Assembly: GCA_021234155.1 (NCBI GenBank)
Contig: JAJEKV010000543.1
Location: 87,911-151,910, forward strand
Origin: Isoetes taiwanensis
Lineage: Eukaryota; Streptophyta; Lycopodiopsida; Isoetales; Isoetaceae
Direction: 5' to 3'
Length of the DNA: 64,000 nucleotides
Part shown: positions 6,998-64,000 of the stretch, piece by piece
How the letters are laid out: every line of letters begins with the position of its first letter
Position numbering within the stretch: position 1 is the stretch's first letter
Notes under the pieces: model-generated
What the model saw: the letters and a program-made list of their open reading frames with translations, nothing else
Told to the model about the DNA's origin: nothing
Databases searched by the model: none
Program-made: the position numbers and the translations under genes

Positions 6998-7720
6998 AGC
7001 GTGAAAGATTCCCCTAGATTTTTGAAGATGAGCCCAAGGTTCCTTTAGATTCTGCAATATTCTATGTAGATTCTCCTAGATTCTTGTAGATTCAACAAAG
7101 ATTCCCCTAGATTCTCTAAGATTCTATCAAGATACCTCTCGATTCTCAAAGATTTTCCTACATTTTCTAAGATTCTCTTGAGATTCCCCTAGGTTTTCAA
7201 AGATTATCCCAAGATTCCTCTTGATTTTTTCAAGATTCCATGTAGATTCTCTTAGATTTTCCAAGATTCTATAAAGATTCTCCTAGAATCCTAAGATTCT
7301 CTTCAGATTCCTCTAGATTCTCTAAGATCCTATCAAGATTCCCCTAAATTCCTTTAGGTTCTTAAAGAGTTTATCAAGATTCCCTCAGATTCCCTTACAT
7401 TCATCAAAGATTCTCTCTCGAACCATGTAGATTTTCTTAGATTTTCCAATATTCTATAAAGATTCTTCTAGAATACCAAAGATTCTCTTGAGATTCCTCT
7501 AGATTCTTTAAGGCCCTGTGAAGATTCCCCTAGATTTTCCAAAATTGCACCAGGATTTCCATTACATTCTCAAAGGTGCTCTCTTGAGATTCCCATAAAT
7601 TCTCTAAGATTCTCATGATATTCTTATGGATTTCCTAAGATACTATAAAGATTCTCCTAGATTCCCTCAACTTACCATAGATTGCTTGAAACTCGAAGAT
7701 TCCAAAAAGATTCTTAATGT
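6998..7720 (-). repeat. GAATCT degenerate array, left (reads AGATTC on plus)
   Basis: About 720 bp made almost wholly of AGATTC or close variants every 10-20 bp, with linkers such as CCCTAG, TCCTAG and CTATAA. It is not a regular tandem repeat: spacing and linkers vary. It is the inverted counterpart of 32790-33415, and parts align between them, for example the AAAAAGATTCTTAATGTTCA end at 7707-7726. Confidence 0.85.
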
Positions 7721-30153: not shown

Positions 30154-31224
30154 TTGTGCAGGTATAATTGAGCCAGATGCAAGGGTGGGTCATTCTGCCG
30201 GTTTGCTTGGAAAGTAAATTGTTATCTTTGGTGGACAAACATCATTCAGGACAATTATCTAGAGACCTGTAAGCTGGAAAATGATTTTTCTTACTCTCCT
30301 CAATTATAACTTTCAGATACTGATTTATGGCTTGTGAATGCAGGGGTATCATTAATACTTCAGGTTTAGTAACGGACTATTGGTCCAGAATGGAGAACAC
30401 TAGAAACAAGGTTAATAAATGAAGAAGATGCAACATCACATGGGTATGATGCTCATAGAATAGCACAACTTGGTAATTCAGAAATTATAATAACCCGGCC
30501 TACTTATGATGGTAAATTGGATACGATTATAATGAAGTTGGAACTGTGATGTATCCCTTTCAAAGAAATAGGTCAACCACAATTCAAATGCCATATCATT
30601 TTTGTGCAGTCCAGATCTTTAAGGAAACTTGACTACAATGGATTTTTTCACATGTGGCCACCATAACATCATGATTTGAGCAAATTTCAATAGAGAAACT
30701 AGAAACCTACAAAACACTCCAATGCTTGGAAGCCAGAGCTGACTGGCCTTGGATTTATGAACTTAAAAAATCAACTAAAATTGTTCCTATAAAAGCAAGG
30801 GGAAAGTACCAAAACGCCTTACTTTTGCTAAAATTACCAAAATGCCCTCCAAAATAAAGAGCATTTTGGTGATATTATATTTTTGTGGCTCATCAATTTC
30901 AAGAATCATCTTCACAAACATTGTAGATTACGATAAGATTTTATCAATCATTTAAATCGAACTTGGGATTCACAACTCTTTTTAGATATTATTTGCAACA
31001 CTTATTTAAAGAAGATGCCACTCTTCTATAAGTTTTGTCAAGGGCACTTTTTTACTTGATCATTCACAAAAAAGGCATTGTTATAGCCAATCACCCTATT
31101 TTTAAGGGCAGTTAGGTGATTTTTGCAAAATGTAGTGGCCGTTTGTGCCAATATGTTTTCCCAAACAAATGTCGCCAACATATTCATTAAAATACAATAC
31201 TCATCTCTACATGTGTAAAATAAA

Positions 31225-32789: not shown

Positions 32790-33415
32790 TAAGAATCTTT
32801 TTGGAATCTTCGAGTTTCAAGGAATCTATGGTAAGTTGAGGGAATCTAGGAGAATCTTTATAGTATCTTAGAAAATCCAGAAGAATATCATGAGAATCTT
32901 AGAGAATTTATGGGAATCTCAAGAGAGCACCTTTGAGAGCGTAATGGAAATCCTGGTGCAATTTTAGAAAATCTAGGGGAATCTTCAAAGGGCCTTAAAG
33001 AATCTAGAGGAATCTCAAGAGAATCTTTGGTATTCTAGAAGAATCTTTATAGAATATTGGGTAATCTAAGAAAATCTACATGGTTCGAGAGAGAATCTTT
33101 GATGAATGTAAGGGAATCTGAGGGAATCTTGATAAACTCTTTAAGAACCTAAAGGAATTTGATAGGATCTTAGAGAATCTAGAGGAATCTGAAGAGAATC
33201 TTAGGATTCTAGGAGAATCTTTATAGAATCTTAGAAAATCTACGAGAATCTACATGGAATCTTGAAAAAATCAAGAGGAAATTTGGGATAATCTTTGAAA
33301 ACCTAGGGGAATCTCAAGAGAATCTTAGAAAATGTAGGAAAATCTTTGAGAATCGAAAGTTATCTTGATAGAATATTAGAGAATCTAGGGGAATCTTTGT
33401 AAACATTAATATTTT
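32790..33415 (+). repeat. GAATCT degenerate array, right
   Basis: About 620 bp of GAATCT-type units, the inverted counterpart of 6998-7720. Linker details such as GGAAATCCTGGTGCAATTTT (32946-32965) can be matched to the left array (about 7545-7562), so the array was there before the arms were duplicated. Confidence 0.88.
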
Positions 33416-39387: not shown

Positions 39388-39654
39388 TGTTGATGATGTC
39401 TTCACTTGGTCAAAGCGGTCACCCATATTCCAGGAAGAGGTCACCTTCGTTCCGGGAATAATTGTGACTTAATCTAGGCAACCCGATATTTAGGCCTAAT
39501 CTAAGGCATGATTCCTTAGTTAGCTATTGTTCCTTTTCTATTTAAACTTTGAATGATAAACTTCCCAATTGCATTTCATTGTATGGTTTTTCTTCTTCTT
39601 ATTAATGAAATCACCTCCTTTGTGATTCCTCCCTTGGCATCCCGAAGTTCTTTA
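39388..39654 (+). repeat. 5' LTR of Copia element 1
   Basis: 267 bp, starts TGTTGATGATG and ends TTCTTTA. The A+T-rich region near 39535-39545 (TTTCTATTTAAAC) is a likely TATA region. Confidence 0.95.
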
Positions 39655-39667
39655 TGGTATCGAGCCG
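39655..39667 (+). promoter_or_regulatory. Primer-binding site of Copia element 1
   Basis: TGGTATCGAGCCG directly follows the LTR. It is one base off TGGTATCAGAGC-type sites complementary to initiator methionine tRNA. Confidence 0.8.
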
Positions 39668-40019
39668 TGTCCCTTTCCAAGGAGATGGAAATCAATTTCG
39701 CAACTTCCTCCATCCATGCGGTAATGTAGCATCGCCTGGATCCCCCGAAAACCTTCGAACCCAACCAAAGGATTAAAAGACTTTGGCATTGAAAGGTCCA
39801 GAGGTGATAACTTCCCCATGTGGAAGTACCGGATGCGTCGCATACTTTGAAGCGTTGGATTATGGGAGGTTATAACCGCAAATGGAGATCAAAACTGGTG
39901 GGAGATAAAAAAGCCTTAAAGAAATGGGCGGTGAAAGACTCTCGAGCTCATTCCCAGCCTTATTTCTTGCATTCACCATTCGCGCTTTAACAGCTGAAAG
40001 TATCTCATAATGCCCATGA

Positions 40020-40780
40020 ATGTTGGTCCAAATTGTTTGCGTTTATTTGAATCCAAAACATTGGCGTCTCAAGTCATGCCGAGGCATCGCCTTTATGCCG
40101 CTTAAAGTCCAAGAGGGAGAATCCATGAGTCTCCACATTGGCAAAATCCGCAATATCATGGATCAACTTGAAGAAGCCGGGAGATCAAGCTATGTGATAC
40201 GTCGCCGCTATATGGATCAACACAATTGCCTCACCTTACTCTCTAGTCCGCCTCCCGCATATGGGAATCTGGTGGTAGTACTTTCAAACAGTCCTTCCAC
40301 ATTGACATGGGAAGAAGTCGATTGCAAAAAAATCCGCAAGAAGAAGTCCGGTTGCGCCAGGGGATCTCGGATCCTCAAGTAGCCCCTGTTTACTCAAAAC
40401 AAAGGCCCGAGAGCAGATTATGGCACGAGGGAACATGATTCTAAGGAATCAAAAGGCCTCGATGCACTCATTGCCGGAAAAGAGGGCATATCAAAGAGAA
40501 ATGCTGGAAATTGCTTGGCGAAAGCAAGCTCGTAATGCAAAGGATTCAAATGGGAGTACCCATCCGCTCAAACTGGAAATTCCGGTTTCACTAATCTTGA
40601 ATCTCGGGATCAACCAACGGGGAGCCTTCATGACTGGGCAGTCCAATGCCCTTGAACACAACTTGGTTTGACAATGGTAAAAGATCTCATCACATGACCG
40701 AAGAGCAGCAGCTTTTTCGTTCAATTAAAAGTGCTTCATCCCCTTTGTCCATATCCACGAGCAATGGGAGCAAACCGATT
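40020..40780 (+). pseudogene. Copia 1 gag and protease remnant
   Basis: Gag helical part (SLHIGKIRNIMDQLEEAG, then LLSSPPPAYGNLVV) at 40110-40290. A zinc knuckle in another frame near 40460-40500 (CRKRGHIKEKCW). Protease start near 40668 (TTWFDNGK, where WxxDSG is usual; the Ser is Asn here). Frameshifts separate the parts. Confidence 0.8.
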
Positions 40781-41730
40781 GCAGCCCACACCGGAGAAGT
40801 CCGTGATCACTCTCAACAATGGTAAAAGTCTTTCCATTGCAAATGTACGTCTTGTACCGGGTTTGGATCAGAATCTCCTTTGCATGGCTCAACTCATCGA
40901 CCTTGGCTTCAACGTGGCTTTCTCACCAAATCATGCAATGCTCTTGGATGCAAATACCAAAAGGGTTATGGCCACATGCATCGGATATGGAAATCTCTAT
41001 AAGATGGATACTTTTCTCGAAGGTTTTGCACTTCATACTCACGTGATCGATGAGCTATGGCACCATAGGCTTGGTCATGCGGGCTTGGACAACGTTCGAG
41101 ACCACTATTGCATCCAAGGCGCCACCGGGTTTACCTTCACGGTTGTTGTTCTCTCGCTCTTGTGAAATTCGCACCATGGGCAAAGCAACGCAAGCATCCT
41201 TTTTCCAAATGAAGCAAATCGAAGCGCCTTCCGGGCCATCGAAAGTACATTACGATATTTAGGGGCGCATCCTCAATCACTTGGCGGATCTCTCTATTTC
41301 CTCGCATTTATAGATGATGCCTCCGGATACACTCGTGTATTCTTTATTCATCGAAATCTCGGAAACATTTCAATGCTTTCAGCAATATGTGTCTTTTGTG
41401 CACACTCAACTTGGGCGACCTCTTCAAAGTCTAATGAGTGACAACGGAGGGGAATATACTTCTAAACAGATGGCAAAATTCTGCCAAGACCATGGAATCG
41501 AAAGCACCGCTTAGGTGTTTGGAAACTCTGAACAGAATGGTCTTCAACGCATGAACCGAACCATCAAGGACATGGCCCGATGTTCGCTTATCCAAGCTCA
41601 CCTTCCACTCAAATTGGCCGAGGTTGTTCATACATCCGTCTATCTCGAAACAGGCTTGTCTCGTGATCTAGCTCCAAGCGCAGACCCCATTTCACATATG
41701 GACAGGAAATTCTCCGGATCTTAACCATCT
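40780..41730 (+). pseudogene. Copia 1 integrase remnant
   Basis: GAG-pre-integrase block at about 41050-41100 (LWHHRLGHAGLDN). Core domain with IDDASGYTRVFF at about 41310-41350, then SLMSDNGGEYTSKQM at 41431-41475 (second catalytic Asp) and the third block NGLQRMNRT at about 41535-41560, where the usual Glu of VERxNRT is lost. Several stops. Confidence 0.85.
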
Positions 41731-42339
41731 AAAAGTCTTTGGTTGTTTGGCTCATGCTCTCAATCTCCCGGCAACAATTTGGCGGTGCCTTTCAATCTCG
41801 AAGCATTCCAGCCATCTTAATTGGCTATTCCACCACCAAGAAAGGGTACAAAATTATATAATTATTCCAGCGGGGAAGATGTTTTCTGATCGAGATGTGC
41901 ACTTCTTTGAAGATAAATTGGGAGCCTCGTTACTTTCCCCGATGAAGGTCCAAATTTTATACTCCCCGCCCATGCCGGTTCAAGATCCGGCGTCTTCCCC
42001 GATGATCCCATGAGTGCAGAGACACTACCATTGATGCACTCTCAAGTGGTAATTGATCCGGCCAGATGATCCATTCATGGAATTCCAAGATGGACCACTG
42101 GAGATCCCTCGCTCTCCTCGCTACGTAACCTCCTCAAGTGCCTTCTGCTCCAAGACGTTCTAGCGAGGCCATGGAACCCCCACAGCCCATTTTGGAGTAC
42201 CATCAAGCCATGTTCAATGCACAAACAAAGGATTGCCTCCACAAATTTGCCGAGGCTCTCAAGACCCCATGTCGCTTGAATGGCAACATGCCATGGATCG
42301 AGAGATTGCTTCACTCCATCGCAATCAAACATGGACATT

Positions 42340-42950
42340 GGTCCCGCTTCCACGGACGTTGCCTCATCTCCTCCAAGTGGATCTATAAGATCAAATTCAA
42401 AATCGATGGCAGCCTCGATCGATTCAAAGCTCGCTTTGTAGCTCGAGGATTCTCACAAATAGCGTGAGTGGATTTTGGAGACACTTTCTCCCTCGTCATA
42501 AAAATGGCATCCATCGAGTCTTCGCTTGCTTTTGCAGCCCAGAATGATCTAGAAGTCCATCAAATGGACGTGGAGGGCGGCTTTCCTTTATCTGCAAACT
42601 CAAGAAAGCACTTTATGGCCTTAAACAGGCTCCAAGGGCATGGTACCAAAAGATGCATTGTTTTCTCTGGCGCACAAGGCTTCCGGAATGGAGATGTCGA
42701 CACCAACCTCTATATTCAGCTTTGCGGATCCACCTTTGTGCTATTAGGCTTATACATTGATGATACCAGGTTTGTAAGCAACTCTCTTGCTCATCTCCAA
42801 GACGTGAAGCAAGCTCTAGCTCACACTTTCTCCATGCATGATCTCGGTGATATTAGTAGCTGTTTGGGCCTCCGAATCACCCCCCAACCGAAGCTCAACA
42901 CCTCCTTTGCATTGATCAAGCACAATATGCCCATGATATCCTAGCCAAAT
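42340..42950 (+). pseudogene. Copia 1 reverse transcriptase remnant
   Basis: [20 protein letters not shown] at 42373-42430, then HQMDVEGGFPL (motif A, with Ala-Phe altered). A deletion follows, then LKKALYGLKQAPRAWY in another frame at about 42600-42645. LGLYIDDTRFVS (motif C, YIDD) lies at about 42748-42780. A TGA at 42464-42466 and frame changes break it. Confidence 0.85.
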
Positions 42951-43199
42951 TTTCGCATGCTTTCGGACTGCAATGGCTCTTCCATTCCCATGGAACACGG
43001 CTTGCTTGTTTCTTCACTGACGACCGCCCCAAATCCCCTTCACATGCTTTGGCTATGCAGGGGATATTCCATACCGCAACTTGCGGGTTGTCTCAATTAC
43101 ATCATGGTTTCCACCAGGTCGGATCTTGCATATTCAAGAAGCTTTCTTAGCGGTTTATGGCCAATCGGCATTGTCCATTGACAAGCACTCAAGCGGGTT

Positions 43200-43740
43200 C
43201 TTCGCTATCTCAAAGCGAGACTCAAGATTATGGCATCATATATGGGCTGATTCGGTTTTACTCCCAATCATTTCATTGGTTACAATTCGATTACGATCAT
43301 GCGGGGACCACGATGAGAGTAAGTCCACGAGGAGGTTACCGCTTTCTTCTTAATGGAGGTGCGGTCACATGAAGCTCAAAAAAGCGACAAGTCACGGCTC
43401 AATCCAAAGATCGCTTTGAATACATTGTCATTTGTTTGAAGCTGCCAAGGAAGCTGAATGGATTTTTTAAAATCACCAAGGATCTTCCACCGCAGCAGGA
43501 GCTTCCTCTCACACTCTTCTGCGACAATCAAAGCACCATTGCCCTTGGCAAGGATTCTAAATTCCATGCTTTCGAGCAAACACATTCGTCCGCTTTCACT
43601 TTCTTGGGATGAGGTCCAAGAAGGACGATCACCATGCCTTATTGTCCCTCCAATGATATGCTTGCGGACATCCTTACCAAGCCCCCGCCCAAAGCTAAGT
43701 TCGAGGGGCATCGCCTTCATCTTCGGACACCGGACGGCGG
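43200..43740 (+). pseudogene. Copia 1 RNase H remnant
   Basis: In mixed frames: TLFCDNQSTIALGKDSKFHA, and at the end PSNDMLADILTKPPP (43649-43693), the usual C-terminal block before the 3' LTR. Confidence 0.8.
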
Positions 43741-43799
43741 TTCAAGCGGGGAGAAGAGTATGGTGACCTCCGTCCTTGACCCATTGAAGTCAAGCAGAG

Positions 43800-44066
43800 T
43801 GTTGATGATGTCTTCACTTGGTCAAAGCGGTCACCCATATTCTAGGAAGAGGTCACCTTCGTTCCAGGAATAATTGACGCTTAATCTGGGCAACCTGATA
43901 TTTAGGCCTAATCTAAGGCATGATTCCTTAGTTAGCTATTGTTCTTTTTCTATTTAAACCTGCTGAATGATAATCTCGGCAGTGCATTTCATTGTATGGT
44001 TTTTCTTCTTCTTATTAATGAAATCACCTCCTTTGTGATTCCTCCCTTGGCATCCTGAGTTCTTTA
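43800..44066 (+). repeat. 3' LTR of Copia element 1
   Basis: 267 bp, same length as the 5' LTR. The target duplication TTTTG follows at 44067-44071. The tract before it (TTGAAGTCAAGCAGAG) is a weak polypurine tract. Confidence 0.95.
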
Positions 44067-44071
44067 TTTTG

Positions 44072-47290: not shown

Positions 47291-47925
47291 TGTTGGTGAA
47301 TGGGAATCTTGAAGGATCTTTATAGAGACTTGAATGATCTGAGGGAATGTTTAGATGCGGTGAGAGAATCTAACGACAATTGTGGAAAATTTTATCTCAA
47401 ACCTTAATTTTACTGGCTAGTCTCAACATTAGAAGTTGATGTCTTATTTCGTGAAATCTTTGAATAATCTCCGGGAATCTGGTGGAATCTTCAGAGAATC
47501 TTATAAAATCTAGAGAATCTCGAGAGATTCTTTTCAAAACTATAGGAATCTAAGGGAATCTTCATAAAAATATTTGAGAATCCAGAGGAATCTTGATGAT
47601 TGAAGAATTTAGAGGAATCTTTATGGAATCTAAAGGACTCCAAGAGAATCTGTATAGAACCTTGGAGAATCTAGAGGAATCTTGGGATAATCTTTATGGA
47701 TCTAAGGGAATCTTATTATACTCTTGGAATAATCTTTGAGAATCTAAGGAAATCTTATTATAATCTTGGGGAACCCTTATAGAACTAGGGGAATCTTAAG
47801 AAAATTCACGTGAATTCCTATAGAATATTGGAGATTCTAGGGAAATCTCTGCAAAATCCTAGGGAATCTAAAGGAATCTTCATGGAATCTTAGGGATTCT
47901 ATGGGGATTAGAGGGAATTTTAAAA
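47291..47925 (+). repeat. GAATCT degenerate array, far right
   Basis: Same type as the arrays at 7.0, 15.6 and 32.8 kb, but more decayed and outside the inverted structure. ACTTCATGCCGGGTCGACTT at 48013-48032 recalls the marker text of the other arrays. Confidence 0.82.
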
Positions 47926-49562: not shown

Positions 49563-50468
49563 ATGAGGATTGAACCTCTAAGCCACAGCAATGCATACTA
49601 TTGGTTTATCAAGGTACAAACCAAACTGTGTGAGAAGGGACTACGGGGAGTGGTTTCAGGTGCTGAACCAAAACCCACAGCCCAAGCAAAGGGGACAAAC
49701 GTGGTCCAAAGTGCAGCTCAAGTGGTGAAAGGAGAACCTGCTGCAGAAGATCCTGCAAAGGCAGAAGTTGAGAGACAAAGCTTGGCAAGATGGCTGCAAA
49801 AGGATTGGGCAGCCAAGAGCAGAATCCTAAAGTATCTGGATGATACTCTGATGCCTCAAATCGCTGAAGCAAATTCAGCTAAGGAAGCATGGGAGCAGTT
49901 AGAAAAGTCTTACAAGAGGAGGCATTTCTCAATCCAGGCAAATCTTTACAACACTGAATTCAGCACCAAGCTCAAGGACTGCGATTCAGTCAAAGAATAC
50001 ATGGGAATTATTCGCCAAGCTGCTAAATGATTCTGAGGGCATGAAAAAGGGCCTTGATGATGATGTAGTAGTGAACCTTTGCTACTTGGGCTGCCTTCCA
50101 GTTACAATAATGTCAAGAACATCATTGGTTCAGTAGAGAAGGTGGAATTTGAATGGGCATGTCAGCAGCTGATGCTTGAAGAACGGAATCAAGGAGGCAC
50201 CAAACGTTCTGGAGCCAAGGAGAATCAAGCATTCATGGAGAACAAACAAGAATCTCGAAAGTGCTTTAACTGCAACAAGATTGGACACATAGGAAAAAAT
50301 TGTCCAGAGCCCGACAGGAGAAAAAGGACCCAAAATCAGAAAGGAAAAGATAATTATGGCAAAGGGAATCACAAAAGGCCAAAGGAAGATCCGAAGGCAC
50401 ATAAGGCTAGCAAGAGTAGTTCATTCGAAGAAGAGGAAGGTACAGAATCTGATCAGATGATTCCATAG
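49563..50468 (+). pseudogene. Copia 2 gag, two frames
   Basis: The first frame (49563-50030) has AYYWFIKVQTKLCEKGLRGV, and SAKEAWEQLEKSYKRRHFSI. A frameshift near 50005-50020 follows. The second frame (to 50468) has LLGLPSSYNNVKNIIGSVEK and the zinc knuckle CFNCNKIGHIGKNCPEP (CX2CX4HX4C, about 50261-50311). This nucleocapsid packs element RNA into virus-like particles. Confidence 0.9.
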
Positions 50469-50649
50469 TGTCTGTCAGCAAAGCATTCTTCGCTTCAGCT
50501 AAACCTGAGCCTGCATCACGCATCATTGATAAGGTTAAGGCTTGCATTTCACCTCTGCTCAAATTTTTTCAGATTATAATATCATTCATGATGATGTGGA
50601 AATCCAATGACGCTATGGCTTCCTGTTTCATAGCATCTAACATAGTCAA

Positions 50650-51020
50650 AGGGGCATGGTACTTGGATTCAGGGGCAAGTGATCACAACAAAAGGCACTA
50701 TTTAAAAGCTACTGTCCAAACACATCCGAGAGAAAAGTGAGGATAGGCAAAGGAAAGCTCAGCATTGCATGGATTGGCAGTGTGACTCTTAAGCTGCCAC
50801 AAGGAACACTTGACTTGAAGAATGTCTTGCACGTTCCAGATCTTGAGGCCAACCTCCTTTCCATATCTAAAATGGATGGCGCAAAGCTCTTTGTGAATTT
50901 TGGCAACGGTAAATGCATTGTCAAGGATAGAAAGGAGGAGATTATTGCCAAAGGAGAGAGAGTCGGCAATATATATCACCGAGTTGGTCGTCCACTCCCA
51001 ACACGCCCCCTAGCTTTGTT
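50650..51020 (+). pseudogene. Copia 2 protease
   Basis: WYLDSGASDH at about 50660-50690 carries the catalytic Asp-Ser-Gly. The following part (LDLKNVLHVPDLEANLLSIS, 50812-50870) is in a different frame, so a shift lies near 50700-50740. Confidence 0.85.
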
Positions 51021-51023
51021 GAA

Positions 51024-52904
51024 ATGCTCGCCGCCGTAACATGGCACGAAAGGCTAGGGCACGCCAATTATCCATTGTTGAAGGAGATGCAAGCACATAA
51101 TCTTGTAACGGGCCTGCCTAAAGTTTCTAAGCCACAATCCCTTTGTAAAGGATGTGTGCTAGGCAAATTGAGAAGGAAATCGTACAGGAAGGAGAAAACC
51201 AAACGAGCATCCAAACAACTAGAGCTGCTGCATTTGGATTTGTGGGGGCCAGCGAGCATAAAATCACTTGGGGGCTCAAAGTATTTCATGCTGATTATTG
51301 ACGATTTCAGTACGAAGAATTGGGTTTTCTTCCTTAAACACAAATCTGAGGTATTTGATGAATTCACTAGATGGAAAACAATGGTCGAAAAACAGGTTGA
51401 ATGTGTTATAAAAACCATTCAAACAGACCAAGATAGGGAATTTGTCAATCATAGACTCAGCCACTTCTTGCAGCAATCTGGCATACATCATCAGAGATCA
51501 GTAGCATATGAACATCAACAAAATGGCGTGGTGGAAAGAAAAAATCGTACCATGCTTGAATGTGCTCGAGCTATGATATATGGCAGGGGACTTGATCCAA
51601 TTTTTTGGGCAGAAGCAGTGCATACGGCCTGTTACATTCTCGACAGAGTGCCTACCAAGGCAAATCCCAACAGTGTACCAGAGGAAGTTTGGTCTGGTCA
51701 CAAACCAGATGTGCAAGATTTCAAGATCTTTGGCTGCAAGGCATATGCGCATCTCAGTCCCCAAGAGCGTCCTCGAGGTAAGTTATCTACCTGTGCTTTG
51801 GCTTGCATGTTTGTTGGATATGATGAACATGTCAAAGGGTATAGGCTTTATGTGCCTTCCAGCAGAAAGATCATTGTAAGACGAAGTGTCCAATTTGATG
51901 AAAGTGTATTCTCAATTGGCAAAAAGGAGAAATCTTCCATGGTTGAGTGGCATGAAAGTGACGATGATGATGAACATGAAAATTGCCCTGAAAAAACACA
52001 TGTTGACGATAATGAGGACCCTTCATACGTAGATCCAGAACCTCTTCCTTCAGAACCAGAAGAAACTGACCTTGAAGATGACGAGGAGTTCTCTGCTGTC
52101 CCCATCAGACGGTCAAGCCGGAACAGAAAGCTCATTGATAGGATGCAGTCCTACCTCGAGTCTAAATCAGGAAAAACATCATCTTACATCACATTTCATA
52201 CCACAGTCGCAATGGATGAGCCCCTCAGCTTTCAAGAAGCAATTAGCAGCCCTCACTGTAAAGCATGGCAGCAGGCAATGCGTGATGAATATCAGTCCTT
52301 ATTGGACAATGATACTTGGACCTTATGCTCCCTTCCTCCAAACAGAAAAGCAGTGTCGTGCAAATGGGTTTACAAAGTCAAGTATGATGAAGAAGGACAC
52401 ATTGATAGATACAAAGCATGCCTCGTAGCAAAGGGGTATTTCCAAATACCCGGAGTTGATTTCCATGAAACATTTGCACCTGTGGCACGCTTGACATCTG
52501 TTAGATTGGTCATTGCTATGGCAGTTGCATATAATTTGGATCTTCAACAAATGGATGTAAAAACAGCATTCCTCCATGGCCACTTAAAGGAGGAAGTTTA
52601 CATGAAGATGAAGCAGGCTCCTGGCTTCACAAAAAAGGGACAAAAGAACTTGGTATATAAGCTGAAACGTGCCCTTTATGGCTTGAAGCAGTCCTCCCGG
52701 CAATGGTATCACACTATACACCAATTCTTTTCAGACAAGGGGTTCTCATGCAGCCAAGCTGATTGGAACATATATTACCAGATCCACGACTCTAAAATGA
52801 TCATCATCCATTACTACGTAGATGATCCGATCTTAAGTAACCGCCCATTGCCCATGAACAAAGACCAAAGCAAAGCGACCCTCAATACGCTTCCACATGA
52901 CTGA
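51024..52904 (+). CDS. Copia 2 integrase and reverse transcriptase, 626 codons open
   Basis: Pre-integrase zinc-binding block (WHERLGHANY, then LCKGCVLGK), then the integrase core: LLHLDLWGP, TIQTDQDREF, NGVVERKNRTM with the Asp, Asp and Glu triad. A long acidic linker follows (SDDDDEHENCPEK to LEDDEEFSAVP). The RT has KWVYKVKYDEEGHIDRYKA, DLQQMDVKTAFLHGHLKEEV (motif A), ALYGLKQSSRQWY and HYYVDDPILSN (motif C, with Pro where Leu is usual). It ends 52904; RNase H continues in the next frame from about 52897, so one frameshift disrupts the polyprotein. The start codon is only the first Met after the upstream shift. The enzyme copies element RNA and inserts the DNA. Confidence 0.95.
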   Translation: MLAAVTWHERLGHANYPLLKEMQAHNLVTGLPKVSKPQSLCKGCVLGKLRRKSYRKEKTKRASKQLELLHLDLWGPASIKSLGGSKYFMLIIDDFSTKNWVFFLKHKSEVFDEFTRWKTMVEKQVECVIKTIQTDQDREFVNHRLSHFLQQSGIHHQRSVAYEHQQNGVVERKNRTMLECARAMIYGRGLDPIFWAEAVHTACYILDRVPTKANPNSVPEEVWSGHKPDVQDFKIFGCKAYAHLSPQERPRGKLSTCALACMFVGYDEHVKGYRLYVPSSRKIIVRRSVQFDESVFSIGKKEKSSMVEWHESDDDDEHENCPEKTHVDDNEDPSYVDPEPLPSEPEETDLEDDEEFSAVPIRRSSRNRKLIDRMQSYLESKSGKTSSYITFHTTVAMDEPLSFQEAISSPHCKAWQQAMRDEYQSLLDNDTWTLCSLPPNRKAVSCKWVYKVKYDEEGHIDRYKACLVAKGYFQIPGVDFHETFAPVARLTSVRLVIAMAVAYNLDLQQMDVKTAFLHGHLKEEVYMKMKQAPGFTKKGQKNLVYKLKRALYGLKQSSRQWYHTIHQFFSDKGFSCSQADWNIYYQIHDSKMIIIHYYVDDPILSNRPLPMNKDQSKATLNTLPHD

Positions 52905-53649
52905 TCTTGGAGCATTGCGCTATTTCCTTGGCATTCAAGTGTTGAAAGATGCGGACAGTGGCAACATCACCCTCCATCAGACTAAAGCGATCCAATCTCT
53001 CCTCAACAGATGTAACATAGAGGACAATAAGCCCATCGTCACCCCTGCTACCACTCAGCATTCTCATTCCCTTAAAAGAATTGACTCTGAATTACGAGCG
53101 ATAGGCTATAGAAGCATTGTTGGCTCCCTGATGCACTTCATGGTGTCCCAGACGCCTTTTGGATATTTCTCAGGTGTGATCACCCTCACCCGTTTCGCCG
53201 AGAAGCCGGAGACTCAACATTGGCAGGGCCTTAAGCGATTGCTCAGATACCTACAAGGCACTAAGAACCTTGGCATCACCTTTCATGCTGGTAGCTCACT
53301 CACTCTTGTAGGGTATGTTGACGCCGATTATGCAGGAGATTCTATAGATCGGAAATCTCAAAGTGGCTTTTGTTTTATGCTGCAAGGGGGAGCAGTGAGC
53401 TGGTCTAGTAAAAAACAAAAGGCAAATGCTGCATCAAGTTGCGAGTCCGAATATATGGCACTTGCTTCTACTGCCAAAGAGGCCATTTGGTTGAGAAGAA
53501 TGCTAAAAGAGCTCAATACAGCTCAGGAACAGGGCACTATCATCTTCAATGACAACAAAGCAGCGTTGTCATTTGCTAAAAATCCCACCAATTTTTCAAA
53601 AGCCAAACATATACAGTGCGATATCATTTCACAAGAGAGAAAATCATAG
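52897..53649 (+). pseudogene. Copia 2 RT end and RNase H
   Basis: MTDLGALRYFLGIQVLKDAD, then PFGYFSGVITLTRFAEKPET, LGITFHAGSSLTLVGYVDAD, YAGDSIDRKSQSGF, CESEYMALASTAKEA and FNDNKAALSFAKNP. These are the RT thumb and RNase H blocks. After KHIQCD a frameshift ends the reading; IDVRDLVTR follows in another frame up to about 53690. Confidence 0.93.
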
Positions 53650-53893
53650 AGGGCAAAATTGATGTGCGTGATCTCGTGACCCGGATAAAATGCCGGTGAT
53701 GTATTCACAAAACCTTTGGGTAGAAAACCATTCTGCAGGTGCATCAATGAGTTAGGGATGACTATTACATGAGTATCATCGGCTGCAATCCATTTCCATT
53801 CTGAGGGGGAGCAGTTAAAGGGAGCATCCAATATCTGAAATAGCTAAGTTGAGTAGTTAATTTCTTCATTTTAGTTGTCTTGTTAAGTCTGAT

Positions 53894-54154: not shown

Positions 54155-55685
54155 GGCTTTAGGTGATTTGCATATAGCTTTGGGTGACTCGCATATTGCA
54201 CATCGTGAACCAGATTTTCCTTCAAAGCAGATTCTACTTCTAATATACACCAAAACATTTTAATAATGTTGGCTATGGCAGATTAAGGTCAAACCTTTTT
54301 CTTGGCTACATTACCTGATGCATTTCTTTGCTCCAATCGCTGGCTTTTTGGAAGAAAAAAACGGTGGTGTCCATGGGCTAAATGTACGCTTTAGTTTGGG
54401 ATGAAGAAAATAATGGCTTTTTGCAAAACTTATTTTCTTTCCTGCTTTTGTGTTGAATGTGTTAGTGCGCCAACAACAATCTGGCAAGTTTATATCTAAG
54501 CTCTGTGCATACTTGATGTATATACGAGCAAGACAAATTCTTAACTTATTCCTAGCGTTTTCAAGCAGACATGGTTTTTTATTGGAACAAATGTAACATT
54601 ATTTAGCATTGTGGTCTTGTGTTAAATACGTTTCTTTCATGAATGTCAATTAACCATCATAAATGTGTTTCTGGATTTGTCGACTAGAAGGGCAAGGCTA
54701 TGAATGTGTAAAGTGTAAGTGTTGTTTCGTCGTAGAGGTATAAAAGTAATGAGGGGAATTGTAAAAATACCCCTGAACATGTAATGAGGGCAAATTGTAA
54801 AAATACCCCTGAACATGTAAACATGCAAAGATAGGGCATTCTCATGCAAAGACGGGGCATTTTCATATGAATTGCACATCTGGGTATTCTATGCAAATTG
54901 TAAAAATACCTTGGTAATTTTGGCAAATATTACAAGGTGGTCATGGTGCCACATGGTTAAAATAATATGCACAAGAAGGATGTGTGCGGCTTCATATATA
55001 TATATATATGCATAAAGTACCAAGTAGAAGCTCAGGGTTACGGGACAAATACACTACCATTCAATTGTAAGGTCTGTATTCTCTTCCGCCATGCTTTACA
55101 AATGTTGGCTCTTTTCTTTCACAATATGAAATTGCAATGGAGGCCCCATTCCCATACCAAACATTAAGTTATCTAGCGGGGAAAGTACCTAAGAAGGCAG
55201 ATGCTTACAGTTGCTGAATTTGGAGGTGAAGCAAAATGAAACTGATGCCGTCCTTGGGGCATAATTGTTAACTTCCAAATATGTGTTCTTGAACTATTTA
55301 TGAATGTCCAAGGAGGATCATTATGATTTTGTGCAAATCTTCGATAATGGAGGTCACCGAATGGCTAGAGTGTATTTAAAAATAAAAGCTCGTGTGTAAA
55401 TAAAAAGTCGTATTTAATTAAAGTGGGACTCATTCCATTCCCATTTTTTTTGACCCCAGGTTAATTTATATAAAAAAGTAGCACCCCAGGCAGAAAACTA
55501 TCCTTAATTGAATTTTTGAATAAAACTCTGAATCCAGAAATTTGTAGTTTTTGTGTTCGCGAGTCGAGAACAAAAACAATGCAAATCAAAACAAAGGAAA
55601 TTCATTAAAGTTTGAAACCAAAGATCTAGTTGAAAATGAATTTTTATTAATAAATTTGAACGGATACAATGTATTTTACATGGGG
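54155..55685. other. Spacer with short tandem repeats
   Basis: AATTGTAAAAATACCCCTGA occurs twice (about 54756 and 54795) and ATGCAAAGAYRGGGCATTYTC twice (about 54823 and 54844). A TA microsatellite lies at about 54995-55008. No gene recognised. Confidence 0.55.
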
Positions 55686-56259: not shown

Positions 56260-56630
56260 GAGAGCATTCATTCCATACAACCGCATCCAATGGCGTGGGA
56301 AGTAGTGTCTTTCTCGACTCGCCCGAGTCGAGAAAGGCCCATAAAGTCAAAGTACAACCATTCTCATTAGAATATGGTTGCATCCAATCACACACCGGAA
56401 GCATACAAATGCTTTTGTCAACGAGACAACTTAAAGCATGCCTTTCGACTCGCGAGTCGAAAGGCCTGTGAAACCCAATGTACAAGCATTATCATAATAG
56501 ATTGTGGCTGCATCCGGTCACACAATCAAACATACAAATGGTTTCATCAACACGACACAAGCATGCCTTTCGACTCGTGAGTCGAAAGGCATCGAAAACT
56601 CAATATACAAGTATATTCATTACAAAATGG
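56260..56630. repeat. Three tandem copies, about 125 bp, each with a long palindrome
   Basis: Each copy has GCATCCRRTCACACA-like text, CATACAAATG, then a palindrome: 56309-56335, 56441-56464 and 56563-56592, then AATRTACAA. The palindromes are versions of CCTTTCGACTCGCGAGTCGA and its mirror. Nearby bases have diverged more than the palindromes. Confidence 0.88.
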
Positions 56631-56699
56631 TCAATACATGTGTTCACGTTCGATTACAATATTCACACAATTTGACTATCCAAAGGTGGGTCACTCTTC

Positions 56700-57410
56700 T
56701 TGTTCATCAAAGTATTTGTCGTCCATAGCTTTCATGATCGGCTTGCTCTCCGGATCGGGTTCCGTGGAGGCTCGGATAGTTCGTAAGCACATCGGCGACA
56801 AGAATGGCAAAGAGGGATTCCGCCAAGAGGGGCCGTAGTCCGAAGGACAACCACCTATCCGTCTCATATTCTTGGTCGATATGGCTTAGCAATGATTGTA
56901 TTTGCGCTGTTATGATAGCACTTGTAGGCGGAGTCGTCTATGATCAGTTGTTGTGTTTGCCATAGTCCCGAATTGCTCATAAACCCCCGGGCCCGACCTT
57001 TTCACCATTATAGGCTTCCCCTTTGTGATGGTGGATCGGGGTCCTTCACATGCTCGACCCTTCGTTTCCCCAAACGAACTTGAACTTCAAAACTGAAATG
57101 CCGAGAACACCAAGAACATTGACAATATTTTTCTTTGCCATACAAGACCATATGCCCACTTGAATCGGGTTCGGGCACCATTCAATAATTTCCTTAGCTC
57201 TAGGCCTCGGATACACTATTTTATGCTACTGTTTTCATTGGGATCTCGCGAGGTGTTAATCTCGGGACGTCTTTGTCGTGGTATAACGCAGCTAATACTC
57301 CATTGACGTCAAATATTACAAGCTTGGTGGGACCCGAATTTGGATCCCGTTTGAGTTTGGCTCGACCATATTTCCGTTCATCGGGATCCAAATGCGGGAT
57401 CATTATCTTC
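56700..57410 (-). pseudogene. FCP1/NIF-like phosphatase (HAD family) fragment
   Basis: Minus strand, 57403-57221: GPTKLVIFDVNGVLAALYH, where DVNGV stands at the DxDxT/V catalytic motif I of FCP1-like phosphatases (second Asp is Asn). Then about 57210-57090: RAKEIIEWCPNPIQVGIWSC, MAKKNIVNVLGV; FVWGNEGS near 57070; and QLIIDDSAYKCYHNSANTII at about 56952-56893, the late Asp-Asp motif. Frames change several times, and introns may account for part of this. Plant proteins of this family often have the Asn form and may be inactive or act in RNA polymerase II and miRNA regulation. The copy is broken or multi-exon; I cannot tell fully. Confidence 0.72.
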
Positions 57411-57428
57411 TTGGTCCTTTCTCGGCTG

Positions 57429-60400
57429 TTAGCGGTGTCTCATTGTGGATTGTCTTTGGGAATTGCATTCTCCTCCTCGTGAAGTGAACCGATGCTTTCC
57501 AATGACAATGGTGCGGAGTCGTTGACAAGGAATTCCACTGAAATGATGACATCCGCCGAAGGAATGAGTTTTCTCGACCGCGAATCGAGAATGAAAAGAA
57601 AAGGTATTGAAAGGAACGCGTTTTTTCGACTTCGCGAGTCGAGAAACACCGACAGAGCAAAGTAAACTCACCTCGCTCTCCGGGTTTTCAATAATGTTTT
57701 CGCAGCATTCTGGTCCAAACCTTCGATATCCTCGTCTCCGTCGGCTTTGTCTCCCTCGTCCTCGTCGTCTTTTATCGCTTCCATTTGTCTTCCTCCCCTT
57801 TGAAATGCTCATGAAGCAGCATCCGGTATGATGAATGGTTTCAACCATGTCCTTATTTCCAACCACGGATATAGGTTTCATTCCAAAAAAGCATAGCCCC
57901 CGAGAGAACAGGCCATTCATGTACCACTCGATACAATTTGATCTTCCTCGACCAAGCTGGTTATGAAGTACTTGATAACTCTTGGCGGATAGGAATTCTA
58001 TGTATAGGGGACCGGTCGCACCATCTTTGCCGACCTTGTCCATCGATGGAACGCCCTCTATAAACCTGCCCCCTTCCGGGGTTCCATCCGCTCTTGAGAG
58101 ATCATGAACTTGTCGAGATAATGATGCTCGCTAGACCACCACTTATCCAGTCGACCGCCGATCTTGAAATCAAAACCAAAACTATGTTGGCAAAGGTTGG
58201 TGCCTTGGCAAGCCAAGTCTCCGCACTCATGATCAAGTTCGTTATATGGAGTGCATGATCTTGTTGGTGAAGTTAATATCAGGTGCCCATTGGGAGATAG
58301 CGATTGTTTGATTGCCCGGCATGCAAAAAGACAAGGCGAAAGTATCCGTGTCGGTCATGTCCGCATTAACGCCTTGTACCACTGCTCTATGTCGACTTTG
58401 TCATAAAAGGGTGGGGTCTTGATCATATTGATGGCAAAATAGTGCCACGGGTCCAGTGCAGTTCGCACCACCAAATCCCTTGTGTCCCAAAGTAACCGTA
58501 AATGGGGGGAGCTATCGTGCCTTTAAATGGGACCACCCGAATCCAAGCTTCCTTTTCAGAATTGCCATAGCACGTTCAGGGAAAGGAAAGGTTTTGACGT
58601 TACGCTTTCAGCTTGGTGTTGATGTAGGGTTGACATAGGCGGTTCAATTCCTTCATGTCTTCCTCATCAAGGGCAGCCTTTTCCTTGTAATAATCAAAAT
58701 CATGGTGTTCATTAGATGCAACGTTGTAGAACTCCTCGTGATGCCTTCTTCTAACGCAGACGCCGCCTTTAGGACTGTGGCATAATCCTTTGCGCCCCGT
58801 GCATTTTAGAACTCCCGGTCTTCCTTAGCGGGATTGTTCCCTCCAAGATTTTGCCTTGTAGGTCAAGTTTCTTTGTCCAGGTGAGGCCCTCAGATCCCTC
58901 TTCATGAACTGCTTGTCAAACAACTTGGGGTCCGCCTGCTTGGAAATTCTCCATTGCTGTCCTCCTTGACTTGCCTCTTGTCCATTGAGCCCATATGTCG
59001 GTCCATTTCTCCCGGGGCCTTCGGTGCTAAGAATGAGGTCATATTGGTCCGAGAGACTCCCCGCCTTTCCTTGGTGTTCTCTTCTTCTTCTCCTCTTCTT
59101 CCTCTCCCTCGTCATCTTCCTGTCCCTCCAGCGGAGAACATATCTACATAGTTTCTCAAAGGTCTTCCACTTATCCCAGGGAGCCCTGTTTCCTTTAGGG
59201 GCGTGAGGACAACCCAATGCTTTCCAATTGTTGCCTAGCGTGTATGATCCGGGTCGGGGATAAGGGGCGCATTCGGACAATGTACCAATGTCGGAACATG
59301 AAAGTATCTACAAACACCGGAATAAACGGTAAATAGTAGTTCGGGTTTTCGACTCGCGAAGTCGAGAAAGTCCCTTTGAATGTCTAATTTTCTTTTTACT
59401 TCTACGGGTTTTCGACTTACAGTCGAGAAAGCTCTCAGATCCTTTGATTTTACGTGTTACCCTGGCTTTCGACTCGCGAGTCGAAACCCCCCTGATAATG
59501 TCGGCAAATGTTAGGATGGCGGGGCTTTCGACTCGCGAGACGAAAGTCCCTTTGAATGTCTAATTTTCTTTTCTTGGCTAAGGGTTTTCGACTCGCGAGT
59601 CGAAAGCTCCGAGATCCTTTGATTTTACGTGTTACCACGGCTTTTCGACTTCGCCAAGTCGAAACCCTAGTGATGTCGGCAAATGTTAGGGCGCGGGGCT
59701 TTCGACTTCTCGCTGGTGAGAATGGAAAAGAGAGAGAGTTATTTACCTTTACGTAGGCGGCACTCGCTGCTATTGTGTTACAGCGTTGGCTAATCTTTGG
59801 CGGTTCGGTTCTTTGGCGTCTCCGTAGAAAAAGAACTCTGCACTCTGCGCTTGGCATATCTATCCTTGATCCTTGCGGCACCTCCTTCCTCGTGCGCAAT
59901 ACTTGGGCGCCCTCGAGGCGCGGCCGTCTACAACCCGAGCCGGACGTCTTTTCCTTCGGATCTTCCTCGGACTTCCATTTGAACAACTCACCTGTCGATC
60001 TGCTAAAAGGTATGACATCCGCGGGCATTGGATGCAGCGGGATGTCGCACCATCAGGGTTGAGAATCTCGGCGTGTGTCTTTGGATTAAATTCCCAATGG
60101 TTGAACAAGGCGGCATCTCCCGTGCAAACCTTCTAAATGATCTAATGTCCAAGAAGAAAGCTTGTGTGATATTCCCAGCGGATATCTTGAGTTAGGCGCT
60201 CCATTTTTACGTGCCCCTCTACGTGAAATCCTGATCGATCATCCGGATCGAGGTTTGGGACTCGACCATATCTTCGTCTCCTTCGTCATCCGATTCCTCC
60301 CGTGTGGTGTCATCATTACCATCTTTGTTTTTGGTGGACTTTTTGTGTATGAACCACAACTTCATTCCTCACTTTAGAGTGTTGTAGAGTCTTCAAGACA

Positions 60401-60540
60401 AGAGAAGTGAAGCTCCCCCGTATTGAGCAGTTTTTCCCGACTGGAAATCTCCATACCAAGCTCCCGGATGTTAGGGTTCGGCCTCCTTCATCCCTTCGAG
60501 ATCCTTCCACCCAAGGTTCTCGGACAATTTAAAGGTAGCC
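57429..60540 (-). other. Minus-strand coding-like tract with palindromes, unassigned
   Basis: Several minus-strand frames look like exons upstream of the phosphatase fragment: 58043-57429 (GPLYIEFLSAKSYQVLHNQL, then Arg-rich), 59280-58825 (APWDKWKTFEKLCRYVLRWR, then a Lys/Arg run), and about 60540-60430 (LSENLGWKDLEGMKEAEP). None is recognised. Palindromes with TCGACTCGCGAGTCGA core interrupt or lie between them, at about 57570, 57624, 59346, 59409, 59467, 59526, 59586, 59641 and 59700. This may be one long transposon gene or a host gene with introns full of repeats. Confidence 0.4.
59367..59715. repeat. Tandem duplication, period 176 bp, with palindromes
   Basis: Unit 1 starts at about 59367 and unit 2 at about 59543; both open with AAGTCCCTTTGAATGTCTAA. 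Each unit holds two or three copies of the palindrome (TTTTCGACT...AGTCGA...), so the palindromes multiplied partly through tandem duplication. Confidence 0.92.
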
Positions 60541-61940
60541 TTTTTCCCGGTGCCCTTAGCCTTGCTCATGGAAGAGTGAGAATAATTTGAAAGCGCTAAT
60601 TTTTGGTGTGATAGAACTTACTCTTCCTCGGCAGTCCCTCGACATGTAGTGTTAAATGCTTTGAATCAAGCAGAGGCGGAGAGCACAATACCGATTTTCT
60701 TGTACTTGTCTCTGGAGCTCTTCTTGTCCCTTTGGTGTAGAAACAGATCTTTCTCCTTCCCACTTGTCGATACCTCGACATACCACCAAGAATCGCCGCT
60801 ATTTCAAGAAGCTCATCTCTCAGTTCCTCGATGTGAAGAATGGAGTTCGCCGGTGATCACCGGTGAGTCCGCGGTGAATGCCGCAAGATGAAAGGATGGA
60901 TCAGTTAAGGTATTAGACAAAGAAAAACCTCGAGAGCTCACCCGGGTGTTTGTCTTCTTCTTCTTCTTCTTTGCCCGGTAGAAGCATCCCCTCCCGGCCT
61001 CGCTTCTTGGACGGAGTCATGTCGAGATGCCCTCTCATCCTCTTGGACCCCTCTGTAAATTAAGTCTCCTCCCGCGTTGTGAGTTTTAGGACCGCATGTA
61101 AAAAGATCGGGCGTGTTCTTTAATTTGAAGTTAAGGACATGCAATCATTTATGAAAAGAAGCGGGCTAAAGTGCAAAGACGGCGGGCGGGTTTTAGCCCG
61201 CCCAAACACTATTTCGAAATTTAATCACATCAAAGGGACTAAGTGAGCGGGCGTGAAGTTTATCTTCCCCGCATTGGGGACCTCGAAGTTGGAGGGGAGC
61301 ATCGGCATAGCGACTTAGGAATGGCGCCATGACGCGGTAAGCCGCTACTTGGCGCCTTGCATATGTGTTTTTCCCTGACCGCGCCCTATTGCAAGCAGTT
61401 GATTTGATCGATGAGCACCGGAGCTAAGGTAGGAAGCGGAAAGGAGCTGCCGTGACACGGGAACTCTACATCAGCGGCGCCATGGAGCCGGATCGCGAGA
61501 ATCGCAGATGGATACAAGTATTAGATGCGAATACACTCTTGAAGAGACCGCACTTAAGAAGCAAAGACTCTAGGTGAGGCTGCGGGGATCCGTGATCTGA
61601 TGGCCAAGGAATTACTGGCGTGAAGAGGTGAGTTTCAGAGATGCCTATGTTATCTCGGCTTGTAGAACATGCCGTGATGTGTTTAAATAATGGAGCTGCC
61701 GATAAGCTCGACAGTTCATCGTTTCCTTGTCCAAAGATTTTTCAGCTTCGAGAGATGATTTACTCTACGGGTTGAGAGATGCTCGGCAAAGGAAACAATG
61801 GATCGGGGTAAAGACGATTCCGCTTTTTAGGTGTTTTTTCATGGACCATTTACTTGGAATGTTGTACATAGATCAGGCTAGGACTAAGGCCCGGGAGATG
61901 CGGTTCAAATGCATCCTCTTCTTCCGCCTGTCCAAAACCC
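60541..61940. other. GC-rich spacer, no gene assigned
   Basis: Includes a CTTCTT microsatellite at about 60954-60971. No motif recognised. Confidence 0.35.
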
Positions 61941-62990
61941 TCCTCTCGCAATATTCGAGGGAAGATGGTTCAAGGAGAGTGGCTTTTAGGCAGGCTAGAG
62001 GCACTTGGGACTAAAAACAGAGAATAGAAAGTGCGTACTTGTAGAGAATGCAAGCCTTGGCTTCCCTCGCGGGTTTCCACGTGGTTGGTTGTAGAGGCCT
62101 CCACCCAGTCAGGAGCCCCTCCCCTTCGCAATACTCAATTAAGATGGTTAGAAGGAGAGTGACTCGCTTGGGTCGAGGCCACCGCTACCATACGGGAGAA
62201 TTGGTCGGCTAAGGGATTCTCGACTCTGGCAGAAATGAATGCGGAAGAAGCTTCCTATGGTTAATCGGTAGCGACAAGAAGCTTCATCGCGACCGCGAGG
62301 CGAAATGCACGCTCTATGGCTATTTCCCCGCAGAGTTAATTTTCAGAAACGATACTCACCGCAAGTCGAATGCCTTAGCCACGAACTCGATGGTACGGAG
62401 CGGTAAGGCATTCCCGACTACAGCCGAGAATGCATACAAAGAAGCCTGCGGTTTCCCCGGTGGTTAATATTGGCTCCAGCATGTTGCTCAACTTCGCAAT
62501 GTCCGCAGGAAGATGAAGCAGAGTTGTTAAGACCGCTCCGCAGCTAGCCTTAGAGTATCGCCGCTTCGAATTCCGGGCCGAAAGCGAAGAAAATTCCCGC
62601 AAGTTATCGCCAGCCTACCTCCGATCAATGAGCCCATCCCCTTCGCAATATTCCACGAAGATGGTTGAAGGGAGACGGTCTTTGATTGGGTAGAGGCCAC
62701 AGCGACCACAATAATGTGAGAATTGTTGTTAAGAGTTGGCTGCGGGACGGTGAAAACCACTTCTTCTCTCGCAATGTCCCAGGAAGATAGAAGGAGAGTG
62801 GTTAAGACTATCTGCAGCCAGCTCTAGAGTGCACTAGAGCCTCGTTTTCTTTCGACTCACGAAGTCGAAAGCGCCAGCAACCCGTGGTTGTCGCCGAGGC
62901 CTCCACCCGCCGTGAGCCACCCCTCTTCGCAATATTCGATGAGCATGGTTCGAAGGAGAGTGGCTCAGACTGGGTGGAGGCACCTGCGAC
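61940..62990. repeat. Dispersed degenerate repeat, about six copies
   Basis: CGCAATATTCGAGGAAGATG-type text followed by GGTT, AAGGAGAGTGGCT recurs near 61947, 62126, 62492, 62640, 62769 and 62927, usually followed by GGGT(A/G)GAGGC. Spacing is irregular (about 130-370 bp). Confidence 0.8.
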
Positions 62991-63200
62991 TGCACAAAGA
63001 GCCATTGGCAGGGTATCACATTCTCGACTCACGAGTCGAGAAGGCTGCAGCAGGGTTCTAAAGAATATGAAGACATTGGGTAGTCAGTAATTCGACCGCG
63101 AAGTCGAGAATCCCAACGCCAACAGTCCGGAGTGTACACTCCCTCTTCTCGGCCTCGCTGAAGTCGGGAAGTTCTCGACTGGGCGAGTCGGAGAAGAAGG
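62845..63200. repeat. Cluster of TCGACTCNCGAGTCGA-type palindromes
   Basis: Copies near 62849-62872, 63022-63042, 63092-63110 and 63172-63196, with spacer changes at the centre (CACGA, CGCGA, GGGCG). Confidence 0.85.
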
Positions 63201-63831: not shown

Positions 63832-64000
63832 CTACGAATAATGAATTCCGCGCTGAACTTCATACCGAAGCTGCCCTGATCCGGCTTCAATTGCCGCTAA
63901 TAAGATTTTTAGTCTTTGAATCAGCTCTTCTACCGACTGATCACCGGACGCAAAGCGGCTTCTAAGGAAACAGGGAGATTGAGGATCAGAGAAAACAGGG
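63832..64000 (-). CDS. Partial open frame at the window edge, unassigned
   Basis: The minus strand stays open from the window edge to a stop at 63832-63834. It reads RFASGDQSVEELIQRLKILL, then AAIEAGSGQLRYEVQRGIHY. The composition is that of a helical protein end. I do not recognise it. Confidence 0.4.
   Translation of the reverse strand, partial: PVFSDPQSPCFLRSRFASGDQSVEELIQRLKILLAAIEAGSGQLRYEVQRGIHYS

Follow-up and report, generated by a model that had tools for sequence, protein, structure and literature searches.

CpG-containing palindrome arrays in a high-copy DNA transposon of Isoetes taiwanensis as putative protein-binding cis-modules

A short motif that is repeated in arrays along a plant DNA transposon has a described counterpart in the VANDAL elements of Arabidopsis, in which motif arrays, often tandem repeats situated in introns and upstream regions, are reported to be bound by VANC, an anti-silencing protein encoded by the element itself (PMC5735166). 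In addition, clustered high-copy palindromes that form CpG islands in non-coding parts of a transposable element have been described for the long terminal repeats (LTRs) of Sireviruses (PMC2829016). Here we consider a stretch of 64,000 nucleotides from the lycophyte Isoetes taiwanensis (contig JAJEKV010000543.1, C267 in our numbering; hereafter the window), the right-hand part of which carries a family of CpG-containing palindromes. These lie in a high-copy DNA transposon, below called the Isoetes element, and we read them as repeated cis-modules of that element, i.e. as putative sites for a dimeric protein that would regulate transposition or counter silencing. We favour this reading tentatively and put its probability at just under even.

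VANDALs are MULEs with a target-site duplication (TSD) of 9 bp, whereas the TSD of the Isoetes element is 4 bp long (exact in 17 of 21 elements). CACTA/En-Spm elements have CACTA ends and a 3-bp TSD; their subterminal repeats were rejected as a model, the Isoetes element having the ends AAGTCGTATT and its 4-bp TSD. A TSD of this length is not unique to the Sola superfamily. The TSD of Sola is likewise 4 bp (PMC10741241, PMC3627910), and the reported TIRs (terminal inverted repeats; 11-1124 bp) and sizes (mostly 2-9 kb, some above 15 kb) agree with the 25 bp and 12.4 kb found here (PMC10741241). By TSD, TIR and size the element would fit Sola, an agreement that concerns these three traits.

For the palindrome arrays themselves the nearest published model would, by analogy, be VANC. 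In both cases a short motif is repeated many times in a plant DNA transposon, and related copies differ through gain and loss of repeats, but the VANC21 motif, YAGTATTAY, has 9 bp, whereas the motif of the Isoetes element is a CpG palindrome (PMC5735166). The Sirevirus palindromes are similar in their high copy number, their clustering and their occurrence as CpG islands in non-coding parts, but they belong to a copia LTR retrotransposon and have a core that is mostly CGG-CCG, whereas the core in the Isoetes element is CGACTCGCGAGTCG (PMC2829016). Moreover, the latter has 25-bp TIRs and 4-bp TSDs where a Sirevirus has LTRs. The Isoetes element belongs to neither of the two systems.

Palindrome arrays in a high-copy transposon

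An earlier, sequence-only reading of the window had counted at least 15 palindromes of 20-30 bp over 7 kb, and this description was borne out. A half-site search (TCGACT/AGTCGA, total mismatches at most 2) revealed 16 palindromes in the window copy of the transposon, and an alignment of 17 copies added a degraded one (Table 1). The motif TCGACTCGCGAGTCGA (up to 3 mismatches) has six matches in the window, all within 56445-63039, where 100 shuffles gave 0.02 on average, and nine of the 18 strong hairpins found by a scan of the 64 kb lie in 56309-63042. The full form, GGCCTTTCTCGACTCGCGAGTCGAGAAAGGCC, is dyad-symmetric over up to 32 bp. A search of the genome (1,658,258,908 bases in 1110 pieces), of the kind that reading had suggested, located the 20-mer TTTCGACTCGCGAGTCGAAA at 141 places and its reversed control at none. 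The palindromes are real and occur above chance.

The transposon that carries them starts at position 55405 of the window, a left end shared with the copies A (C907), B (C919) and C (C1045), and it is cut at 64000, where the contig stops. The region 55500-64000 matches many places in the genome, with stretches of more than 2 kb being 83-90% identical (17 of 2579 candidates scored). Over 12.3-12.4 kb the copies A, B and C can be aligned with common ends, the intact element measuring approximately 12.4 kb. Its ends are the inverted repeats GTCGTATTTAATTAAAGTGGGAC, of 25 bp when the flanking AA/TT are included, and the terminal 23-mer occurs 1128 times in forward and 1136 times in reverse orientation (control 0). 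An exact 4-bp TSD is lacking in C, L009, L015 and the C16 element (L018/L019), the flanks of which would suit one of 5 bp. Judged by the sequence of its inverted ends and by the 4-bp duplication of host DNA, the element is a TIR DNA transposon. Considering the 25-bp TIR, the 4-bp TSD and the DUF7869-type transposase described below, transposition is probably by cut-and-paste. The window regions 38-48 kb and 50-53.7 kb were rejected as further parts of the element, as they match other genomic places than 55.5-64 kb does.

The distribution of the palindromes is similar among the autonomous-type copies (the window copy, A, B and C). Palindrome centres are found at about 0.92-0.94, 1.05-1.07 and 1.15-1.20 kb, one or two palindromes follow at 2.16-2.23 kb, an array with a spacing of mostly 55-63 bp extends over 3.9-4.35 kb, and further palindromes lie at 6.87-7.9 kb. 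The 4-kb array has a three-unit pattern of its own; in the window (59343..59720) it contains a higher-order repeat of 175 bp. For the non-autonomous elements we analysed the 11 copies sampled first. In ten of these (3.5-4.6 kb) 3-7 palindromes lie at a distance of 0.57-1.27 kb from the left end; on the right, seven of the ten have one or two more, situated 0.55-0.94 kb from the end. Copy L015, of 703 bp, contains a single palindrome, 144 bp from its right end.

Throughout the arrays the spacing is around 60 bp, mostly 52-73 bp, with single cases of 44, 84 and 87; spacings of about 100-140 bp also occur, where a unit probably escaped detection. The spacers of the non-autonomous arrays are alike, but as compared by eye they are unlike those of the autonomous 4-kb array. 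Thus, the spacers differ while the same palindrome recurs, and what persists is the motif together with its approximate pitch. We detected palindromes in all but one of 17 elements, a set that includes the partial window copy (W) and leaves out the C26 element, of which the two ends were retrieved. The element without a detected palindrome is L052, a deletion derivative that retains half of P3 and has P1 and P2 in scrambled form. Inspection by eye showed that deletions start or stop at or near a palindrome centre at P3 of L034, P3 of L052, the P6-P7 interval of L035 and P5 of B, as if the palindromes were breakage or recombination points. Most palindromes are located outside the recognised coding pieces. 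However, P4 and P5 overlap the upstream end of a phosphatase-like open frame, and therefore the term non-coding is true of most palindromes and not of all.

Table 1. Coordinates of the transposon features in the window
Feature	Position	Strand	Basis or remark
DNA transposon, window copy, cut by contig end	55405..64000	.	alignment to copies A, B, C
Left terminal inverted repeat AAGTCGTATTTAATTAAAGTGGGAC	55405..55429	+	23-mer genome count, copy ends
Palindrome P1	56308..56337	.	hairpin scan, half-site search, 17-copy alignment
Palindrome P2	56439..56466	.	motif match, hairpin scan, half-site search, alignment
Palindrome P3	56564..56591	.	genomic site pattern, 199+217 matches; 91 of 100 listed are the element repeat
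Leftward gene remnant, NIF/HAD-phosphatase-like	57017..57667	-	tblastn 4e-46 with open piece of copy A
Palindrome P4, imperfect in window copy	57568..57594	.	half-site search, alignment
Palindrome P5	57620..57648	.	half-site search, alignment
Second leftward coding-like piece, no family	58579..59223	-	tblastn 1e-45 with open piece of copy C
Palindrome array P6-P11 with degraded P12	59343..59720	.	pitch 57-62 bp; P6-P11 start at 59343, 59406, 59463, 59522, 59582, 59639
Degraded palindrome P12	59692-59720		17-copy alignment
Weak palindrome, 2 mismatches	62408..62433	.	half-site search
Palindrome	62846..62874	.	hairpin scan, half-site search
Palindrome	63018..63045	.	motif match, hairpin scan, half-site search
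Palindrome, 1 mismatch	63086..63113	.	half-site search
Palindrome, 1 mismatch	63169..63197	.	half-site search

Sequencing noise and the CpG core

The published assembly (1658.30 Mb; 204 scaffolds and 909 unscaffolded contigs) is described as built from nanopore reads, with Guppy 3.1 basecalling and polishing by racon and pilon (PMC8566536). In the 17-copy alignment, long identical runs alternate with spots that vary in length as well as in letters. The deviation from the majority triplet is 0.50 for CAG and CTG and 0.42-0.47 for CGG, CCG, CGC and GCG, versus 0.05-0.07 for TAT, TAG, CAA and ATG. Scrambling affects 110 of the 371 alignment tiles, 85 of which contain CAG/CTG in at least one copy, 23 CG only and 2 neither. 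Between 56 and 64 kb CWG is depleted, the density of CAG/CTG being 5-26 per kb in the eight bins.

An unrelated copia element in the same window provides a calibration. The copia copy L039, which was chosen as reference because of its long frame, has an open stretch of 1403 aa with 42 CWG and 21 CG per kb, whereas the window copy (39388-44067) is open over at most 158 aa on the matching strand and has 13.5 CWG and 39.5 CG per kb. Of the CAG/CTG sites of L039, 171 could be scored (30 more could not be anchored); 19% of these remain in the window copy of this copia and 53% have acquired a CG, versus a retention of 73% for CAT/ATG, 58% for CWC/GWG, 51% for CG triplets, 44% for GAC/GTC and 42% for CCG/CGG. 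Indels affect 21.6% of the CWG cells in the palindrome element versus 1.9% in another copia stretch with normal CWG (50000-53700). The pattern fits nanopore miscalls at CHG-methylated sites, CHG methylation being proposed here as the cause of the CAG/CTG loss. At another spot, near the left end of the element, most listed copies have GACCCG and the window copy AGGCAG, so that some miscalls may also have turned CG into CAG. It has been reported that methylation is likely to impair basecalling accuracy, or makes basecalling harder, although the relevant passages of these sources give no account of CAG/CTG loss as seen here (PMC9749173, PMC7501810). A literature search on systematic nanopore error at plant CHG methylation yielded nothing relevant by title and abstract. 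The comparison of copies suggests systematic letter errors in some repeats, so that claims on CpG, broken frames, repeat age and compensating changes need checking; if the miscalling is widespread, it would distort what this assembly indicates about CpG statistics, the age of repeats and gene calls.

The noise bears directly on the CpG content of the palindromes, which the sequence-only reading had considered odd for repeat DNA in a plant. In fact, the observed/expected ratio of CpG is 0.7-1.2 in all bins of 56-64 kb and 0.87-1.08 in the 17 copies, i.e. such values extend along the whole element and not over the palindromes only, and part of the CpG of the element is probably miscalled CAG/CTG. 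By extension the CpG core itself could be a nanopore miscall of a CAG/CTG palindrome, as the loss of CAG/CTG is seen both in the palindrome element and in the copia copy of the same window, and half-called forms do exist. At the TCGACTCNGCGAGTCGA sites (100 listed of 246) the letter N is A in 62, C in 22, G in 15 and T in 1, and at the 35 sites CTTTCNGACTC...GAGTCGA it is T in 20, C in 12, G in 3 and A in 0, although these letters, counted by eye, fit either direction of miscalling. However, the full CAG/CTG form is found nowhere in the genome with up to 2 mismatches, nor are both outer arms as CAG/CTG, and the well-called copy L015 (703 bp, 29.9 CWG per kb) contains GGCCTTTCTCGACTCGCGAGTCGAGAAAGGCC, a perfect palindrome of 32 bp. 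A true CAG/CTG core was rejected on these grounds, and we consider such an artefact very improbable. We take the CpG core to be real, the positive evidence being the one copy L015.

Possible binding sites, neutral repeats or hairpins

Under the preferred reading the palindromes would be occupied by a dimeric protein, from either the element or the host, which would thereby regulate transposition or counter silencing, while tandem duplication would expand and turn over the arrays with palindrome and spacing being retained. The palindromes are regarded as putative sites of such a protein because of their dyad symmetry, their similar pitch, their mostly non-coding position and their persistence in differing spacers. 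In support of this, the similarity of the 11 non-autonomous copies to copy C that blastn can detect is confined to about 165-240 bp on the left and, in 9 of the 11, to 60-105 bp on the right, and these copies carry the same palindrome nonetheless. In each of the 16 arrays, moreover, identity between units is higher for palindromes (0.70-0.89) than for spacers (0.38-0.79). The protein, its dimeric nature and its effect are proposals built on what could be seen directly, namely the element, its ends and TSD, the pitch of the arrays and the recurrence in differing spacers. Protein-binding sites were also among the suggestions of the sequence-only reading; we retain that suggestion on account of the recurrence at similar pitch in differing spacers and not, as was argued there, on account of compensation between the arms.

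A possible but less probable explanation is that the arrays are neutral minisatellites, in which the palindrome is just one component of a functionless tandem unit that undergoes slippage and spreads within the transposon. Indeed, the spacers are part of tandem units, as they are more identical than shuffled spacers in 15 of 16 arrays, the number of palindromes differs between elements, and no extra conservation of the palindrome letters could be measured. However, in the autonomous element the same palindrome is found at 0.92-1.2, 2.2, 3.9-4.35 and 6.8-7.9 kb, and it is found again, at a similar pitch, in the non-autonomous arrays with their different spacers. Tandem duplication, which had been named beforehand as a finding that would undo the idea of preserved palindromes, accounts for the copy number within an array and not for the recurrence in different arrays.

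Several points weigh against the preferred reading. Firstly, no palindrome was detected in the last 4.4 kb of the autonomous copies A, B and C, and the arrays are therefore not a symmetrical two-ended subterminal array. Secondly, noise may conceal homology between the interiors of the copies. Thirdly, the higher identity of the palindromes relative to the spacers is partly forced by the detection procedure. Moreover, in clean cells the palindromic CpG is CG in 83% and TG/CA in 8%, versus 83% and 11% elsewhere; with a decay of 8% versus 11% (p = 0.12) special protection of palindromic CpG was rejected as unshown. Finally, non-CpG transitions of C/G are commoner in the palindromes (47 of 889 cells versus 295 of 16365 elsewhere), and so are indel cells (49% versus 33%), an excess that may be due to miscalls.

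The changes in the two arms of the palindromes had been taken beforehand as matched substitutions that testify to preservation of the palindrome. We followed this for P3 in the 91 listed copies that represent the element repeat (of 100 listed from 199+217 genomic matches). The exact form GCATGCCTTTCTCGACTCGTGAGTCGAGAAAGGCAT is present in 30, whereas the short form is found on both arms in 3, the window copy being one of them, and on one arm in 19, so shortening is mostly one-armed. Departures from the majority arm affect both arms in 17 copies, one arm in 32 and neither in 42 (odds ratio 3.2, p = 0.02). Among 94 pooled palindromes complementarity exceeds that expected of independent arms at the outer positions 2 and 4-8, with the strongest excess at 2 (61 observed versus 50.7 expected), 5 (55 versus 36.1) and 7 (46 versus 29.5), and not at 1 and 3. 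At position 2 the C/T association of the arms has p = 0.0005 for W, A, B and C, p = 0.72 for the non-autonomous copies and p = 0.02 for all. The arms thus vary largely, though not wholly, independently. Because the pooled rows are related by descent and the letters at the outer positions are unreliable, probably including miscalls, compensating evolution of the arms is not demonstrated, even though some association exists.

The mostly one-sided shortening of P3 also argues against a role of the palindromes as RNA hairpins, in which folded read-through transcripts would supply small-RNA silencing or RNA processing. Relative to 100 shuffles, folding of the array at 59330-59720 has a z of -6.2, but such a score is expected of any palindrome array, and the hairpins have short stems and a small loop or none; we regard this explanation as improbable. 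Even less credible, and in our view highly improbable, are tiny foldback units that insert by themselves, another suggestion of the sequence-only reading. These would explain why the same palindrome is found in differing spacers. However, at 12 sites compared by eye in 17 copies neither a clean empty site nor a TSD belonging to the palindrome was seen, and many palindromes lie within regular tandem units, with which they move. If the binding-site reading is correct, it would indicate that a lycophyte has a regulator of transposons, for which the perfect 32-bp palindrome is a ready bait. To our knowledge, regulator systems of transposons have been little studied in lycophytes.

Coding content and other repeats

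The copies A, B and C match DUF7869 proteins of the same genome collinearly at 9.8-11.4 kb on the right strand (tblastn, best E 4e-13), the similarity being weaker in C than in A and B. A direct Pfam match to DUF7869 is weak (E 0.0047, under the cut-off), and comparison of the DUF7869 piece with PDB sequences gave no match at E up to 1. DUF7869 is not named in the literature searched. By these similarities the element appears to carry a transposase related to the DUF7869 type; the window copy stops short of this part. DUF7869 reading frames are very abundant in the genome (150 scored of 9907 candidates) and were found in none of 14 control genomes, and many of the genomic frames are open over 250-987 aa.

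Two leftward coding-like pieces are present in the window copy (Table 1). The open piece of copy A that corresponds to the first has a Pfam NIF match of E 0.00099, under the curated cut-off, and the open piece of copy C that corresponds to the second has no Pfam match over the cut-off. Family searches with seven frames of the window were likewise without any match over the cut-off. In a more elaborate, and rather doubtful, version of the preferred reading, this lycophyte transposon would have evolved, separately from VANDAL/VANC, a sequence-specific regulator or anti-silencing system, in which a dimeric protein encoded by the element would recognise CpG palindromes spaced at an approximately constant pitch. 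Recognition might be sensitive to methylation, and the phosphatase-like leftward gene would supply a partner.

Other repeats were found elsewhere in the window. Arrays of a degenerate AGAATCT-like 10/31-bp unit occur in both orientations at 7004-7663, 15997-17560, 32882-33396 and 47484-47798. In addition, two similar hairpins, TAATATCACCAAAATGC...GCATTTTGGTAATTTTA, lie in opposite orientation at 11014-11062 and 30829-30877 and are perhaps the ends of a small inverted-repeat element.

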